From: Alphaproteobacteria bacterium
GTDB lineage: Bacteria > Pseudomonadota > Alphaproteobacteria > GCA-002720895
Direction: 5' to 3'
DNA length: 47,951 nucleotides
NCBI GenBank assembly: GCA_022450705.1
Contig: JAKUPP010000006.1
Span: 1-47,951 of the forward strand
Below the pieces are notes generated by a model. It was not told where the DNA came from and made no database searches. It saw only the letters and a program-made list of their open reading frames with translations. The position numbers and the translations under genes are program-made. Positions 25,450-31,598 of the stretch are shown piece after piece (within the stretch, counting starts at the first letter, position 1; the number at the start of each line of letters is the position of its first letter).

Positions 25450-26193
25450 ATGAATCCATTAAATAATGATTTGAACGGGTGGCTGGTTATTAATAAAGAT
25501 TTGGGAATGACATCAAGACAGGTTGTTAATATTATAAAAAAAACATTAAATGTAAAAAAAATTGGTCATGCCGGGACTTTAGATCCTTTAGCAACAGGAG
25601 TTTTAGCTCTTGCAGTGGGAAAAGCAACAAAAATGGTAAAATATATAATGGATGGTATGAAAAAGTATAGTTTTACCATCAAATGGGGAATTTCAACTGA
25701 TACCCAAGATGCTGAAGGTAAGATTATTGCAAAATCAAATAAGAAATTAGATAAAATTAAATTAAATTCAGTATTAAAAAGTTTTATAGGGGAAAAAAAT
25801 CAAATTCCGCCAAAATTTTCTGCTGTAAAAGTAAAAGGAAGAAGGGCTTATGATTTGGCAAGAAGTGGTAAAGATTTTTCATTGAAACCTAAAAAAGTTT
25901 TTTTAAAAAAGATTAAAGTTGTTGAAAACAAAACAGATAAAAATAACTATACAAAATTTGAAATTGAATCTGGAAAAGGTTTTTATGTAAGAAGTTTAGT
26001 TAGAGATATATGTAAGAAATTAAATATGGATGGCCATGTTATAGAATTAAAAAGAATAGAGTCAGAACCGTTTAATTTAGAAAGTTCTATATCAATTAAA
26101 GATTTTTTAAGATTACATGAAAAGAATGATTGGAAAAATAATTTTTTACCTATATATTCTGTTTTAAATAAAATTAAATATGTTGGAAAATAA
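25450..26193 (+). CDS. truB: TruB, tRNA pseudouridine-55 synthase
   Basis: A 247-residue pseudouridine synthase modifying U55 in the T loop of tRNAs. Seen: GWLVINKDLGMTSRQVV, the catalytic block HAGTLDPLATGVL with Asp45, QIPPKFSAVKVKGRRAYDLAR, and GFYVRSLVRDI. It is shorter than the E. coli protein (about 310), ending soon after the catalytic domain, so the C-terminal PUA-like part is reduced. Its 3' end overlaps rpsO by 14 bases. Confidence 0.95.
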   Translation: MNPLNNDLNGWLVINKDLGMTSRQVVNIIKKTLNVKKIGHAGTLDPLATGVLALAVGKATKMVKYIMDGMKKYSFTIKWGISTDTQDAEGKIIAKSNKKLDKIKLNSVLKSFIGEKNQIPPKFSAVKVKGRRAYDLARSGKDFSLKPKKVFLKKIKVVENKTDKNNYTKFEIESGKGFYVRSLVRDICKKLNMDGHVIELKRIESEPFNLESSISIKDFLRLHEKNDWKNNFLPIYSVLNKIKYVGK

Positions 26194-26449
26194 TTTAACT
26201 AAAGATAAAATTATAAGCGAGTTTCAGAAAAAAAATAAAGATACAGGATCTTCTGAAGTTCAAATAGCCTTATTAACAAAAAGGATAAATTCTTTAACTG
26301 AACATTTTAAAAAAAATAAGAAAGATAACCATTCAAGAGAAGGTATGATTAAATTAATAAGTAGAAGAAGAAGGCTGATTTTATATCTAAAAAAAAATAA
26401 TTTGAAAAGGTACGAAGAAATAATAAAAAAACTCAACTTACGTAAATAA
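26180..26449 (+). CDS. rpsO: Ribosomal protein S15
   Basis: An 89-residue 30S protein that nucleates central-domain assembly. Seen: [36 protein letters not shown] and [11 protein letters not shown], nearly the whole S15 signature. The start ATG 26180 lies inside the truB coding frame (14-base overlap); the S15 alignment supports this start because the normal first helix begins a few residues in. In E. coli S15 represses its own mRNA; the overlap with truB leaves little room for that structure. pnp follows 5 bases later. Confidence 0.95.
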
Positions 26450-26454
26450 TATTA

Positions 26455-28578
26455 GTGTTTGATATCATAAAAAAAGAAATTCAATGGGGCGGTAAAAAGC
26501 TAGTTCTTGAAACAGGCAGAGTAGCAAGACAAGCAAGTGGAGCGGTCTTAGCTACTTATGGAGAAACCACCGTTTTATGTACAGTGGTTGCATCTAAAGA
26601 ACCTAGAGAAGATGTAGATTTTTTACCTTTAACAGTAAGTTATCAAGAAAAAACATTTGCAGCTGGAAAAATACCAGGCGGATTTTTTAAAAGAGAAGCA
26701 AAACCATCAGATAAGGAAACATTGATATCGAGGTTAATTGATAGACCTATTAGACCTTTATTTCCTGAAAATTATTTTAACGAGACACAAATTATATGTA
26801 CTTTATTAAATTTAGATAAAGATACTAGTCCTGACGTAGTTGCTTTTATAGGAGCTTCTGCTGCTTTAGCATTATCTGGAGCACCTGTTCAATCAACTGT
26901 TGCTGCTGCTAAAGTAGGATACATTGATAAAAAATTTGTTCTTAATCCATCTAAATCTCAACTTGAAAATTCTGATTTAGAGTTAGTTGTTGCAGGTACA
27001 AAAGATGGAGTTTTAATGGTTGAGTCAGAAGTAAAAGAATTGCCAGAAAAAATAATGTTAGATGCTGTTATGTTTGCACATAAAGAATTTCAAGATGTAA
27101 TTAAATTTATTGAAACTTTTGCAAAAGGAAAAAAAGTATCTGAAATAGAATATAAAAACGAGAATGGAGATAAAAATTCAAAAGATCTATTTAGTAAAAT
27201 TGAAAAAAAATATAAAAATGATTTTGTTAATGCATATAAAGAAAAAGATAAAGCAATTAGATCAGATGCTTTGTTAGGAATTAGAAAAAAAATTACCGAA
27301 GAATTTATTGTAGAAGATAATGATGAGATAACAGAAAATTTGGTTTCGTCTGCAACAAAAAAAGTAGAAAAAGAATTAGTAAGATCTAGTATTTTAAAAT
27401 CTGGGAAAAGAATTGATGGAAGAGATACTAAAACTGTCAGACCGATTAAAGCCGAGGTCGGAGTTCTTTCCAGAGTTCACGGAAGCGCTCTTTTTACAAG
27501 AGGAGAAACCCAAGCACTGGTAGTGACTACATTAGGTACAAGTTTAGACGAACAAATTATAGATGACTTAGAAGGTGAGTTTAAAGAAAGTTTTATGCTA
27601 CATTATAATTTTCCACCTTATTCAGTTGGAGAAGCTAATATGCTTAGACCACCTGGTAGACGTGAAATTGGTCATGGTAAATTAGCATGGAGAGCAATTA
27701 AACCACTTATGCCAATTAAAGATAAATTTCCATATACAATCAGAGTAGTTTCAGAAATTACAGAATCTAATGGTTCTTCATCTATGGCAACTGTTTGTGG
27801 AACATCTCTATCATTAATGGATGCTGGCGTTCCTTTAGAAAAACCTATTGCTGGTATTGCAATGGGTTTAATCAAAGAAGAAAAAGATTATGCAATTCTT
27901 TCAGATATATTAGGCGATGAAGATCACTTGGGAGATATGGACTTTAAAGTTGCTGGAACTAAAGATGGTATTACTGCTCTTCAAATGGATATAAAAATTA
28001 CAAGTATAACAAAAGAAATTATGGAAAAAGCATTATCGCAGGCTCTGGATGGAAGAATTAAAATTTTATCGGAAATGGATAAAGCAATTGCTTCTTCTCG
28101 AAAAGAATTAAATAGTAATGCACCACAAATACAAACTATAAAAATTGATCCAGCTAAAATTAAAGATGTGATTGGCTCTGGTGGAAAAGTTATTAAATCT
28201 ATAACTGAAGAAACAGGTGCGAAAATTGATATTGAGGATGATGGTACTATTAAAATAGCTTCAACAGATTCAGAAGGCGGAAAATTAGCATTAGAAAAAA
28301 TTGAAAATATTACTGCAGAACCTGAAATAGACGAGATATATAGTGGTACAGTTGTAAAAACAATGGATTTCGGAGCTTTTGTTAATTTTATGGGATCAAA
28401 AGATGGTTTAGTTCATATTTCAGAATTAGCTGATAGAAGAGTAGGAAAGACCACTGATGTTGTAAAAGTTGGAGATAAAGTTACAGTTAAAGTCATAGGT
28501 TTTGATAATAGAGGTAAAATTAAATTAAGTATGAAAGAATTAAAACAAAAGAATGAAAAAAATTTTAATAGAGCCTAA
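26455..28578 (+). CDS. pnp: Polynucleotide phosphorylase
   Basis: A 707-residue phosphorolytic 3'-5' exoribonuclease and degradosome component. Domains: RNase PH 1 (1-220), helical linker (to about 300), RNase PH 2 (about 310-540), KH with [20 protein letters not shown] (about 560-620) and S1 (about 625-695) with [15 protein letters not shown]. Start GTG 26455 gives the expected [17 protein letters not shown]-terminus. Full length. Conserved rpsO-pnp pair. Confidence 0.97.
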
Positions 28579-28583
28579 ATAGT

Positions 28584-29090
28584 ATGGTTAAGAATAGTTT
28601 TACATATGATGATTTAATTGAATGTGCAAAAGGCAAACTTTTTGGAGAAGGAAATGCAAAACTACCCGCCCCGCCTATGCTAATGATGGATAGAATTACA
28701 AAAATTACCAAAGATGGAGGCAATTATAATAAAGGAGAAATTATTGCCGAATTAGATATTAAACCTAACTTATGGTTTTTTGATTGCCATTTTAAAAATG
28801 ACCCTGTAATGCCAGGATGTTTGGGTTTAGACGCGCTATGGCAACTAGTTGGTTTTTTCTTAGGTTGGCTAGGAGCTCCAGGTAAAGGAAGGGCATTAGG
28901 TGTTGGAGAAGTCAAATTTTCAGGCGAGGTATTAAATTTTGCAAAGAAAGTAAAATATACACTTCATATAAAAAAAGTAATTATTAAAAGATTAGCCCTT
29001 GCTGTTGCAGATGGTATTATGTCAGTAGATGGAAAAAATATTTATACTGCAAAAGATCTTAAAGTTGGACTTTTTAAATCTGAAAAATAA
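28584..29090 (+). CDS. fabA: FabA, 3-hydroxydecanoyl-ACP dehydratase/isomerase
   Basis: A 168-residue hotdog-fold enzyme that dehydrates 3-hydroxydecanoyl-ACP and isomerises the product to cis-3-decenoyl-ACP, the entry to unsaturated fatty acids. Seen: [13 protein letters not shown], the catalytic [19 protein letters not shown] with His69 and Asp83 (E. coli His70 and Asp84), and [10 protein letters not shown]. It lies 5 bases after pnp and 15 before the FabB-FabI gene, so the three catalytic steps (FabA, FabB, FabI) are encoded in a row. Confidence 0.96.
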
Positions 29091-29105
29091 ATTTGAGGTT
29101 TACTA

Positions 29106-31148
29106 TTGAAAAGAGTTGTTGTAACTGGAATTGGAATAGTTTCATGCATCGGAAATACTCTTAAAGATGTAACGGATTCTCTTTACAATGCTAAACCAGG
29201 AATAACTTTTAGTAAAGAACACGAAGAGCTCGGTTTTAGAAGCCACGTATATGGCAAGCCAGAAATAAATTTAGAAGAAAAAATAGATAGAAGAGTATTA
29301 AGATTTATGGGAGATGGAGCAGCTTTCAATCATATTGCTATGGAAGATGCAATCAAACATGCAAATTTATCAGAAGAACGCGTTTCAAATGTTGAAACTG
29401 GAATAATTATGGGATCAGGTGGCCCATCTACAAGAAATATAGTTGAAGCAGCAGAAATACTTAAAAAAGAAAAAAATTCAAAAAAAGTAGGGCCATTTAG
29501 AGTCCCTAGAGCTATGAGTAGTACAAACTCTGCAACATTAGCAACAACATTTAAAATTAAAGGAGTAAATTATTCAATTAGTTCAGCTTGCTCAACCAGC
29601 GCTCATTGCGTTGGTAACGCATATGAACTTATTCAAATGGGAAAGCAAAAAATTATTTTTGCAGGAGGTGGAGAAGAATTAGACCCAACTTTGTCTGTAT
29701 TATTTGATGCTATGGGCGCTTTATCATCAAAATATAATAAGGAACCAGGAAAATCATCACGAGCATATGATAAAGATAGAGATGGTTTTATTATTGCAGG
29801 AGGAGCAGGCGTCCTAGTAATGGAAGAGCTAGAAAGTGCTCTTAAAAGATCCGCAAAAATTTATGCTGAAATTGTAGGATATGGCGCAAACTCAGATGGT
29901 CATGATATGGTTCAACCATCAGGAGAAGGCGCAGTAAGGTGCATGAAGCAATCATTAAATGGCCTGAATTTAAAAATTGATTATATTAATACGCATGGAA
30001 CAAGTACTCCAATAGGAGATATTAAAGAAATTGAAGCAATGAAAGATTTATTTAAAGAAGACATGCCATGTTTTAGTTCAACTAAATCATTAACTGGGCA
30101 TTCATTAGGCGGAACAGGTGTTCAAGAAGCAATTTATTCTATATTAATGATGAATAATAATTTTATTTGTAAATCTGCGAATGTTGAAAATTTAGATCCT
30201 GAAGTAGAAGGATTACCTATTGTATTAGAAACTAAAAAAGATTGTGATTTTAATACTTTGTTGAGCAATAGTTTTGGTTTTGGGGGAACAAATGCCTCTT
30301 TAGTTTTTAAAAAATTTGATGCTGAAGAAAAAACTAATTCTATTCCAAAAAAAATTGATGCAGAAAATGAATTTCAAGGAAAAAAAGGAATTATATTTGG
30401 TGTCGCAAATGACCATTCATGTGCTTGGGGTATAGCTAACGGGTTGTTAGAAAAAGGGGCAGAATTATGTATTACCTACCAAAATGATTTATTAAAAAAA
30501 AGGGTAGAAAGTTTATGTAAATCAAAAAATGCATGTGTATTAAAATGCGACGTATCTCAGTCCAACAATATAGAAAATTTATATAAAGAGATAAAAAATA
30601 AATGGGGTAAAATAGATTTTATAGTTCATTCGGTTGCTTATTCAGATAAAAATGAATTAGCAGGAGAATATCTAAATACTTCTAAAGAAAATTTTTTAAA
30701 TACATTATTAATTTCTTGTTACTCTTTTACTGAAATTGCTCAAAAATTTTCAGATATAATTAATCCTCAAGGATCATTATTAACTTTATCATATTTTGGG
30801 TCTCAAAAAGTAATTCCTAATTACAATGTAATGGGAGTAGCAAAAGCAGCTCTTGAAACAAGCGTTAAATATTTGGCAGTAGACTTAGGGGATCAAAAGA
30901 TTAGAGTTAACGGTATTTCTTTAGGACCTATGAGGACATTATCGGGTGCAGCTATTAAAGATGCTAGATATATATATAATTGGACTGAAAAAAATAGTCC
31001 TCTTGGTAAAAGTATTAATTTTCAAGATTTGTCAGGTTCAAGCAATTATTTATTAAGTGATCAATCTAGCGGAGTTACAGGGGAAATTCATTATGTTGAT
31101 GCAGGATATAATGTTATAGGAATGATAAAACCCCCCGAAAAAGCTTGA
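29106..31148 (+). CDS. FabB-FabI fusion: beta-ketoacyl-ACP synthase I + enoyl-ACP reductase
   Basis: A 680-residue protein read in one frame with no internal stop. Residues 1-403 are FabB (KAS I), extending acyl-ACP with malonyl-ACP: [10 protein letters not shown] start, catalytic Cys162 in SSACSTSAH, His297 in [11 protein letters not shown], Lys327 and His332 in [12 protein letters not shown], each one less than E. coli numbering. Residues 404-422 are a charged linker ([10 protein letters not shown]). Residues about 423-680 are Fab[16 protein letters not shown] cofactor loop, HSVAY, Tyr563, Tyr573 and Lys580 in [12 protein letters not shown] (E. coli Tyr146, Tyr156, Lys163), and [17 protein letters not shown]. 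There is no Met in the linker, so FabI has no start of its own. The start is TTG 29106, fixed by the conserved first residues. Separate fabB and fabI genes lie next to each other in many alphaproteobacteria, so fusion by stop loss is easy to picture. Confidence 0.93.
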
Positions 31149-31181
31149 AAAGTTTGTTTAACTAACTTAATTTAACTTTAT

Positions 31182-31598
31182 ATGACAACAGAAACTAAAA
31201 ATAAATTTTTTTCGTTTTTAAAAAAAAATGGTTTAAAACCCACATCTCAAAGAAATTTAGTTGTAAAGCAACTTTTGAATGGAAAAGATAGACATTTCAC
31301 CGCAGAAGATTTGTACGATGAAATGAAACTAAAGAAAACAAATATTTCTTTAGCAACAATTTATAACACTCTTCATAGTTTTGTGGAAAAAAAAATTTTA
31401 AAACTTGTTTCTGTTAAAGAAGGTAAAGCAATTTTTTGTACTAATATGAAAAATCATTATCATTTTTTTAATCCAAAAACTGGAAAATTAACTGATATAC
31501 CTTTTCAAAAAATACAAATCAAAAAATTACCAAAACCACCTAAAGGTACAAAAATAGATAATATTGAAATTACAATTAATTTAAATACAAAGAATTAA
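31182..31598 (+). CDS. irr: Irr-like Fur-family iron response regulator
   Basis: A 138-residue Fur-superfamily protein. Seen: GLKPTSQRNLVVKQLL, HFTAEDLYDE, recognition helix ISLATIYNTLHSFVE, then NHYHFFNPKTGKLTDIPFQ and the ending LPKPPKGTKIDNIEITINLN, which I recognise as Irr (LP-PP-GT-I---V-V--L pattern). Irr proteins sense heme and control iron and heme genes. It follows the FabB-FabI gene by 33 bases; in rhizobia irr also neighbours fabA, but upstream. Its stop overlaps the convergent SH3 gene by TTAA. Heme sensing is inferred, not visible in a short motif. Confidence 0.86.
   Translation: MTTETKNKFFSFLKKNGLKPTSQRNLVVKQLLNGKDRHFTAEDLYDEMKLKKTNISLATIYNTLHSFVEKKILKLVSVKEGKAIFCTNMKNHYHFFNPKTGKLTDIPFQKIQIKKLPKPPKGTKIDNIEITINLNTKN

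Follow-up and report, generated by a model that had tools for sequence, protein, structure and literature searches.

A predicted FabB–FabI fusion protein encoded next to fabA in a small marine order of Alphaproteobacteria

Type II fatty acid synthesis is the standard example of a pathway carried out by separate enzymes and a mobile acyl carrier protein (ACP). In type I fatty acid synthases and polyketide synthases, a ketosynthase and an enoyl reductase are found in one chain. The protein described here resembles these type I synthases in having a ketosynthase and an enoyl reductase on a single chain, but it differs from them in consisting of two type II (FabB and FabI) domains only. A Pfam analysis detected no ACP, acyltransferase, dehydratase or ketoreductase in the fused chain, which places it outside the type I fatty acid synthases. 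The alphaproteobacterial fabA-fabB-fabI cluster has the same three genes in the same order and of the same subfamilies, and the fused FabI is of the cluster type; in that cluster, however, FabB and FabI are separate proteins. FabA isomerises trans-2- to cis-3-decenoyl-ACP, FabB extends the cis-3 isomer, and FabI completes each cycle (PMC3896788).

The gene lies in a window of 47,951 nucleotides (the whole stretch of DNA that was analysed, contig JAKUPP010000006.1 of assembly GCA_022450705.1), and the coordinates of its parts and neighbors are given in table 1. Its translation is a single frame of 680 residues without internal stops. With this gene's base composition, random sequence would have a stop at about 1 codon in 11, which amounts to about 60 over 680 codons. 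The TTG start codon is conserved in the four other fused loci that contain the 5′ end. The product is probably a bifunctional elongase/enoyl reductase, with two complete domains joined by a short flexible linker. This agrees with the sequence-only reading, which had described a complete KAS I and a complete FabI in one frame: both domains were matched over their full length, and the catalytic residues were found at the positions which that reading had assigned to them.

Table 1. Features of the fused gene and its neighbors (positions within the window)
Feature	Position	Strand	Remarks
fabA (3-hydroxydecanoyl-ACP dehydratase/isomerase)	28584..29090	+	PF07977, 159.5 bits; directly upstream
fused fabB::fabI gene	29106..31148	+	680 aa; TTG start, TGA stop
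FabB / KAS I half, residues 1–405	29106..30320	+	NCBIfam PRK07967; C162, H297, K327, H332
linker, residues 406–422	30321..30371	+	without in-frame ATG/GTG/TTG; predicted disordered
FabI half, residues 423–680	30372..31145	+	PF13561; Y563, Y573, K580; cofactor motif
Fur-family regulator (Irr-like by position)	31182..31598	+	PF01475; directly downstream

The NCBIfam model PRK07967 (beta-ketoacyl-ACP synthase I) matches residues 1–405 at model positions 1–405 of 406, with 680.7 bits and thus above its cut-off of 630, and Pfam detected the N- and C-terminal ketoacyl-synt domains in the KAS half. The four residues C162, H297, K327 and H332 are invariant across 22 aligned loci. The closest solved relatives are beta-ketoacyl synthases of the Brucella type, e.g. 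3lrf. Like the FabB proteins of Brucella (3lrf) and E. coli (1fj4), the KAS half is a full-length catalytic domain with Cys-His-His and Lys, but the fused protein differs from them in bearing a C-terminal FabI domain. Identity between the KAS half and FabB relatives is mostly 55–70%. By family membership, this half is predicted to be a KAS I that forms dimers and extends cis-3-decenoyl-ACP.

The Pfam domain adh_short_C2 (PF13561) covers the FabI half completely (positions 1–236 of 236, 256 bits), in keeping with the earlier statement that both halves align from end to end. NCBIfam FabI models match residues 423–676; the best of these, PRK06505, scored 363.6 bits and fell below its cut-off of 446, the FabI cut-offs of NCBIfam being narrow subfamily thresholds. 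The stand-alone FabI of the home order just passes its own subfamily cut-off (455 against 452). Judged by these matches, the fused copy is best filed under FabI at large, without assignment to any NCBIfam FabI subfamily. The solved FabI proteins 3k2e and 5koi align end to end with it, and the likeness extends to a full-length domain with the Tyr-x9-Tyr-x6-Lys motif; the catalytic Tyr-x6-Lys and the second Tyr upstream are present as Y563, Y573 and K580. All 22 aligned loci have Y573 and K580, and relatives have either Tyr or Phe at position 563. The FabI half is predicted to be an NAD(P)H-dependent enoyl-ACP reductase, expected to form tetramers as in known members of the family.

The fused copy differs from 3k2e and 5koi in that it has no start of its own, that its N terminus is tethered to KAS I, and that it carries clade-only changes at residues 439 and 606, both of which sit in conserved cofactor-pocket motifs. 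Residue 439 (30420–30422) is Cys in all fused FabI copies and Ile or Leu in 71 others. Residue 606 (30921–30923) is Leu in all fused copies, and the others have Ala or Pro, with one Ser. The start Met of the relatives' FabI is replaced by Phe in all fused copies.

The linker has 17 residues (19 in one relative), somewhat shorter than the approximately 19 residues of the sequence-only reading, which was right in finding it free of Met. In none of the five genomes spanning the linker does it contain an in-frame ATG, GTG or TTG. Its pairwise identity between relatives ranges from 6 to 62%, with one in-frame difference of two residues. Pairwise comparison of five fused genes (dS 0.3–1.35) gave dN/dS values of 0.03–0.10 for the KAS half and 0.08–0.19 for the FabI half, demonstrating strong purifying selection on both, with the FabI half evolving faster than the KAS half; the linker comparison comprises 16–18 codons, a length at which dN/dS is too noisy. 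The linker pattern fits a flexible tether with little sequence constraint between two enzymes that are probably both working.

An AlphaFold2 model of the monomer, which says nothing on assembly, was built on an alignment (A2) that reads in-frame neighbors through their stops. It had a mean pLDDT of 77 and a pTM of 0.63, with pLDDT below 50 at residues 409–420 and low-confidence loops in the FabI half, including residues 608–635. The model predicts two folded parts with a disordered linker. Superposition of the KAS half on 3lrf, the FabB of Brucella, gives a TM score of 0.96. In a structure search all 50 matches shown were KAS enzymes, so the identity of the FabI half rests on its sequence.

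All five home-order genomes that cover the junction (G000, G002, G003, G004 and G005, representing two genera) have the stop-free fusion. It is full length in G002, G004 and G005 and starts from residue 64 in G003 (contig edge), with 79–91% identity. In the sixth genome, G001, the contig edge falls inside the linker; the frame is open up to this edge, and the linker residues present, ESFLENEFEGKKG, are as in G003. Named records with the fused gene are the single-cell genome AG-464-G09 and the metagenome-assembled genomes MarineAlpha6_Bin2, MarineAlpha6_Bin4 and SP38, some of which may be the same genomes as those above, and the two lists must not be summed. The fusion is fixed in a small marine alphaproteobacterial order that includes the MarineAlpha6 bins. 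The window itself belongs to a draft genome that is fragmented into 101 contigs and 79% complete, which could favor an assembly or sequencing error that joined two genes. However, the probability of such an artefact, already thought low in the earlier reading, is close to nil, because the same junction recurs at 79–91% identity in five separately assembled genomes, one of them from a single cell, and the indels in the linker stay in frame.

A query of 160 residues spanning the junction was searched against 385 Alphaproteobacteria and 399 genomes drawn from the phylum. Among the matches listed for these two sets, stop-free matches over the whole query came from the home order only; a very divergent fusion could have escaped the search of the 385 genomes, and the result covers the matches listed. 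About 20 other genomes among the 385 Alphaproteobacteria match across the junction in frame, all with one or two stops. Several long read-through candidates (G336, G120, G309, G228, G381, G125, G245, G300 and others) were rejected, since all have a stop directly after FabB. Loci L017 and L018, in which FabB seemed at first to be fused on its upstream side, were found on inspection not to be fused. The suggestion that the fusion might be restricted to a SAR11-like clade did not hold: the home clade is a MarineAlpha6-like order. Nor is the fusion a trait of SAR11 as a whole: in the SAR11 loci L052 and L053 the two genes are separate and abut. No paper describing a FabB–FabI fusion was found in a search limited to open-licence literature, in line with the earlier remark that this pair is not known to have been described as a fusion. 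Both halves add new members to well-known families, and the two-domain architecture appears to be undescribed.

The fused gene starts 15 bases after the end of fabA, confirming its position directly after this gene, and fabA is upstream in those fused loci that hold the 5′ flank. The Fur-family gene has the same downstream position in fused loci L036, L037, L038 and L040. The neighborhood from truB to the Fur-family gene appears to be old. In most of the relatives examined, fabB and fabI are separate and adjacent, and the two often share a frame that is interrupted by one stop. They may overlap by a few bases, as in L056 and L013, or lie as much as about 190 bases apart. The PS1-clade loci have an in-frame FabI that begins 57 bases past the FabB stop.

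In a maximum-likelihood tree of 72 FabI domains, the fused copies form a single clade (100/100). Its neighbors are the cluster-type FabI proteins of L056, L013 and the PS1 clade, and the stand-alone FabI from the genomes that carry the fusion lies apart from it. In a tree of 64 KAS domains the fused clade was likewise supported by 100/100, next to L056, SAR11 and L013. The single fused clade in both trees indicates that the fusion arose once and in place, in the ancestor of the order, from the local fabA-fabB-fabI cluster. The stop codon of fabB would have been lost, the short spacer to fabI would have turned into coding sequence, and the start Met of FabI would have been lost. A derivation of the linker from the spacer is suggested by their similar lengths. 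The route to a fusion would be short, given that many relatives have FabI in frame behind one or two stops.

Some further features of gene order were observed. The order truB-rpsO-pnp-fabA-fabB-fabI-Fur-family (25450–31598) is common to Caenispirillum (L054) and MarineAlpha3 (L041), and pnp/rpsO lie downstream on the opposite strand in SAR11, PS1 and rhizobial loci. Two relatives with a FabI close to that of the fusion, L013 and L056, have a FabI start that overlaps or directly adjoins the stop of FabB. This arrangement suggests translational coupling of FabB and FabI without fusion. In a comparison involving L052 and L053 (SAR11) and L095–L099, the FabI located beside FabB in SAR11 groups with the stand-alone FabI type of the home order (100/96); SAR11 FabB, unlike its neighboring FabI, groups with the fused KAS. 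The SAR11 fabA-fabB-fabI cluster thus seems to carry a different FabI paralogue.

A second, stand-alone FabI is present in five other home-order genomes (G001–G005), and in G002 it is held in the hemA-fabI-aroC region. It was not found in the draft of the window's own genome. Loss of the gene from this genome was considered and set aside, since the hemA-fabI-aroC region appears to be missing from the draft, in which aroC was not found and hemA was found only as a 40% paralogue. With a second FabI retained in the other five, the fused FabI need not be essential.

The earlier reading held that the pair ties together the first and last steps of the elongation cycle. Both enzymes are indeed present, and the statement can be refined: the two steps directly follow one another across the boundary between cycles. 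As FabI completes each cycle (PMC3896788), its product, acyl-ACP, is the next substrate of FabB. Channelling by the fused pair may be envisaged on this basis. With KAS I as dimers and FabI as tetramers, as in known members, the fused chain would be drawn into a higher assembly; FabB and FabI would be fixed at 1:1, and acyl-ACP leaving the FabI site could be extended nearby by FabB. After FabA, FabI and FabB would draw on the trans-2 and cis-3 isomers of decenoyl-ACP, respectively, and the ratio of the two competing activities at the C10 branch would be fixed by the fusion and buffered by the free second FabI. Since ACP is outside the fusion, intermediates remain able to diffuse away; with ACP free and another FabI present in the five other genomes of the order, strict channelling is unlikely. 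The claims made here are accordingly modest, namely that the fusion would provide co-localisation and a fixed stoichiometry, and a neutral fusion has to be regarded as a serious rival. It is considered quite unlikely that the enzyme is adaptive and partly channelling and determines the split between saturated and unsaturated chains at the FabA branch through its 1:1 ratio, with a FabI re-tuned at residues 439 and 606 for this role.

There is nearly an even chance that the fusion is neutral, i.e. that in a streamlined genome the stop was lost by chance and the enzymes work as before, with no catalytic benefit. Such an event is consistent with the tight gene packing of an AT-rich genome of roughly 1 Mb, with the one stop that alone separates fabB and fabI in many relatives, with the unconserved linker sequence and with the untethered ACP. 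It is less easily reconciled with a frame that is open across two genera and a linker of near-constant length (17–19 residues); reversion to two genes was seen in none of six genomes, a weak point since re-splitting may be rare. The fused FabI may instead be specialised or reduced, serving in branch control or having an altered cofactor or chain-length preference, while the stand-alone FabI does the bulk of the reduction. The second FabI in G001–G005, the clade-only substitutions at 439 (otherwise Ile/Leu) and 606 (otherwise Ala/Pro) and the faster evolution of the FabI half point in this direction, but all catalytic residues are kept, dN/dS is well below 1, and an operon FabI together with another FabI is found in other Alphaproteobacteria too; such a specialisation is a tentative possibility, on the unlikely side. 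It is improbable that the gene functionally yields two proteins, with a separate FabI released through internal initiation or by proteolysis in the linker. The predicted disorder of the linker would allow for cleavage, but the five genomes spanning it have no in-frame ATG, GTG or TTG there, and the position of the ancestral FabI Met is now Phe.

A natural and fixed fusion of FabB and FabI would offer an existing system for testing whether flux or membrane unsaturation is altered when consecutive steps are tethered, or when the ratio between the enzymes that compete after FabA is fixed. KAS enzymes are inhibited by cerulenin and thiolactomycin, and FabI by triclosan. In the fused protein, the targets of these two inhibitor classes would be located on one chain. 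The fused gene may also serve as a clade marker for this uncultured marine order.
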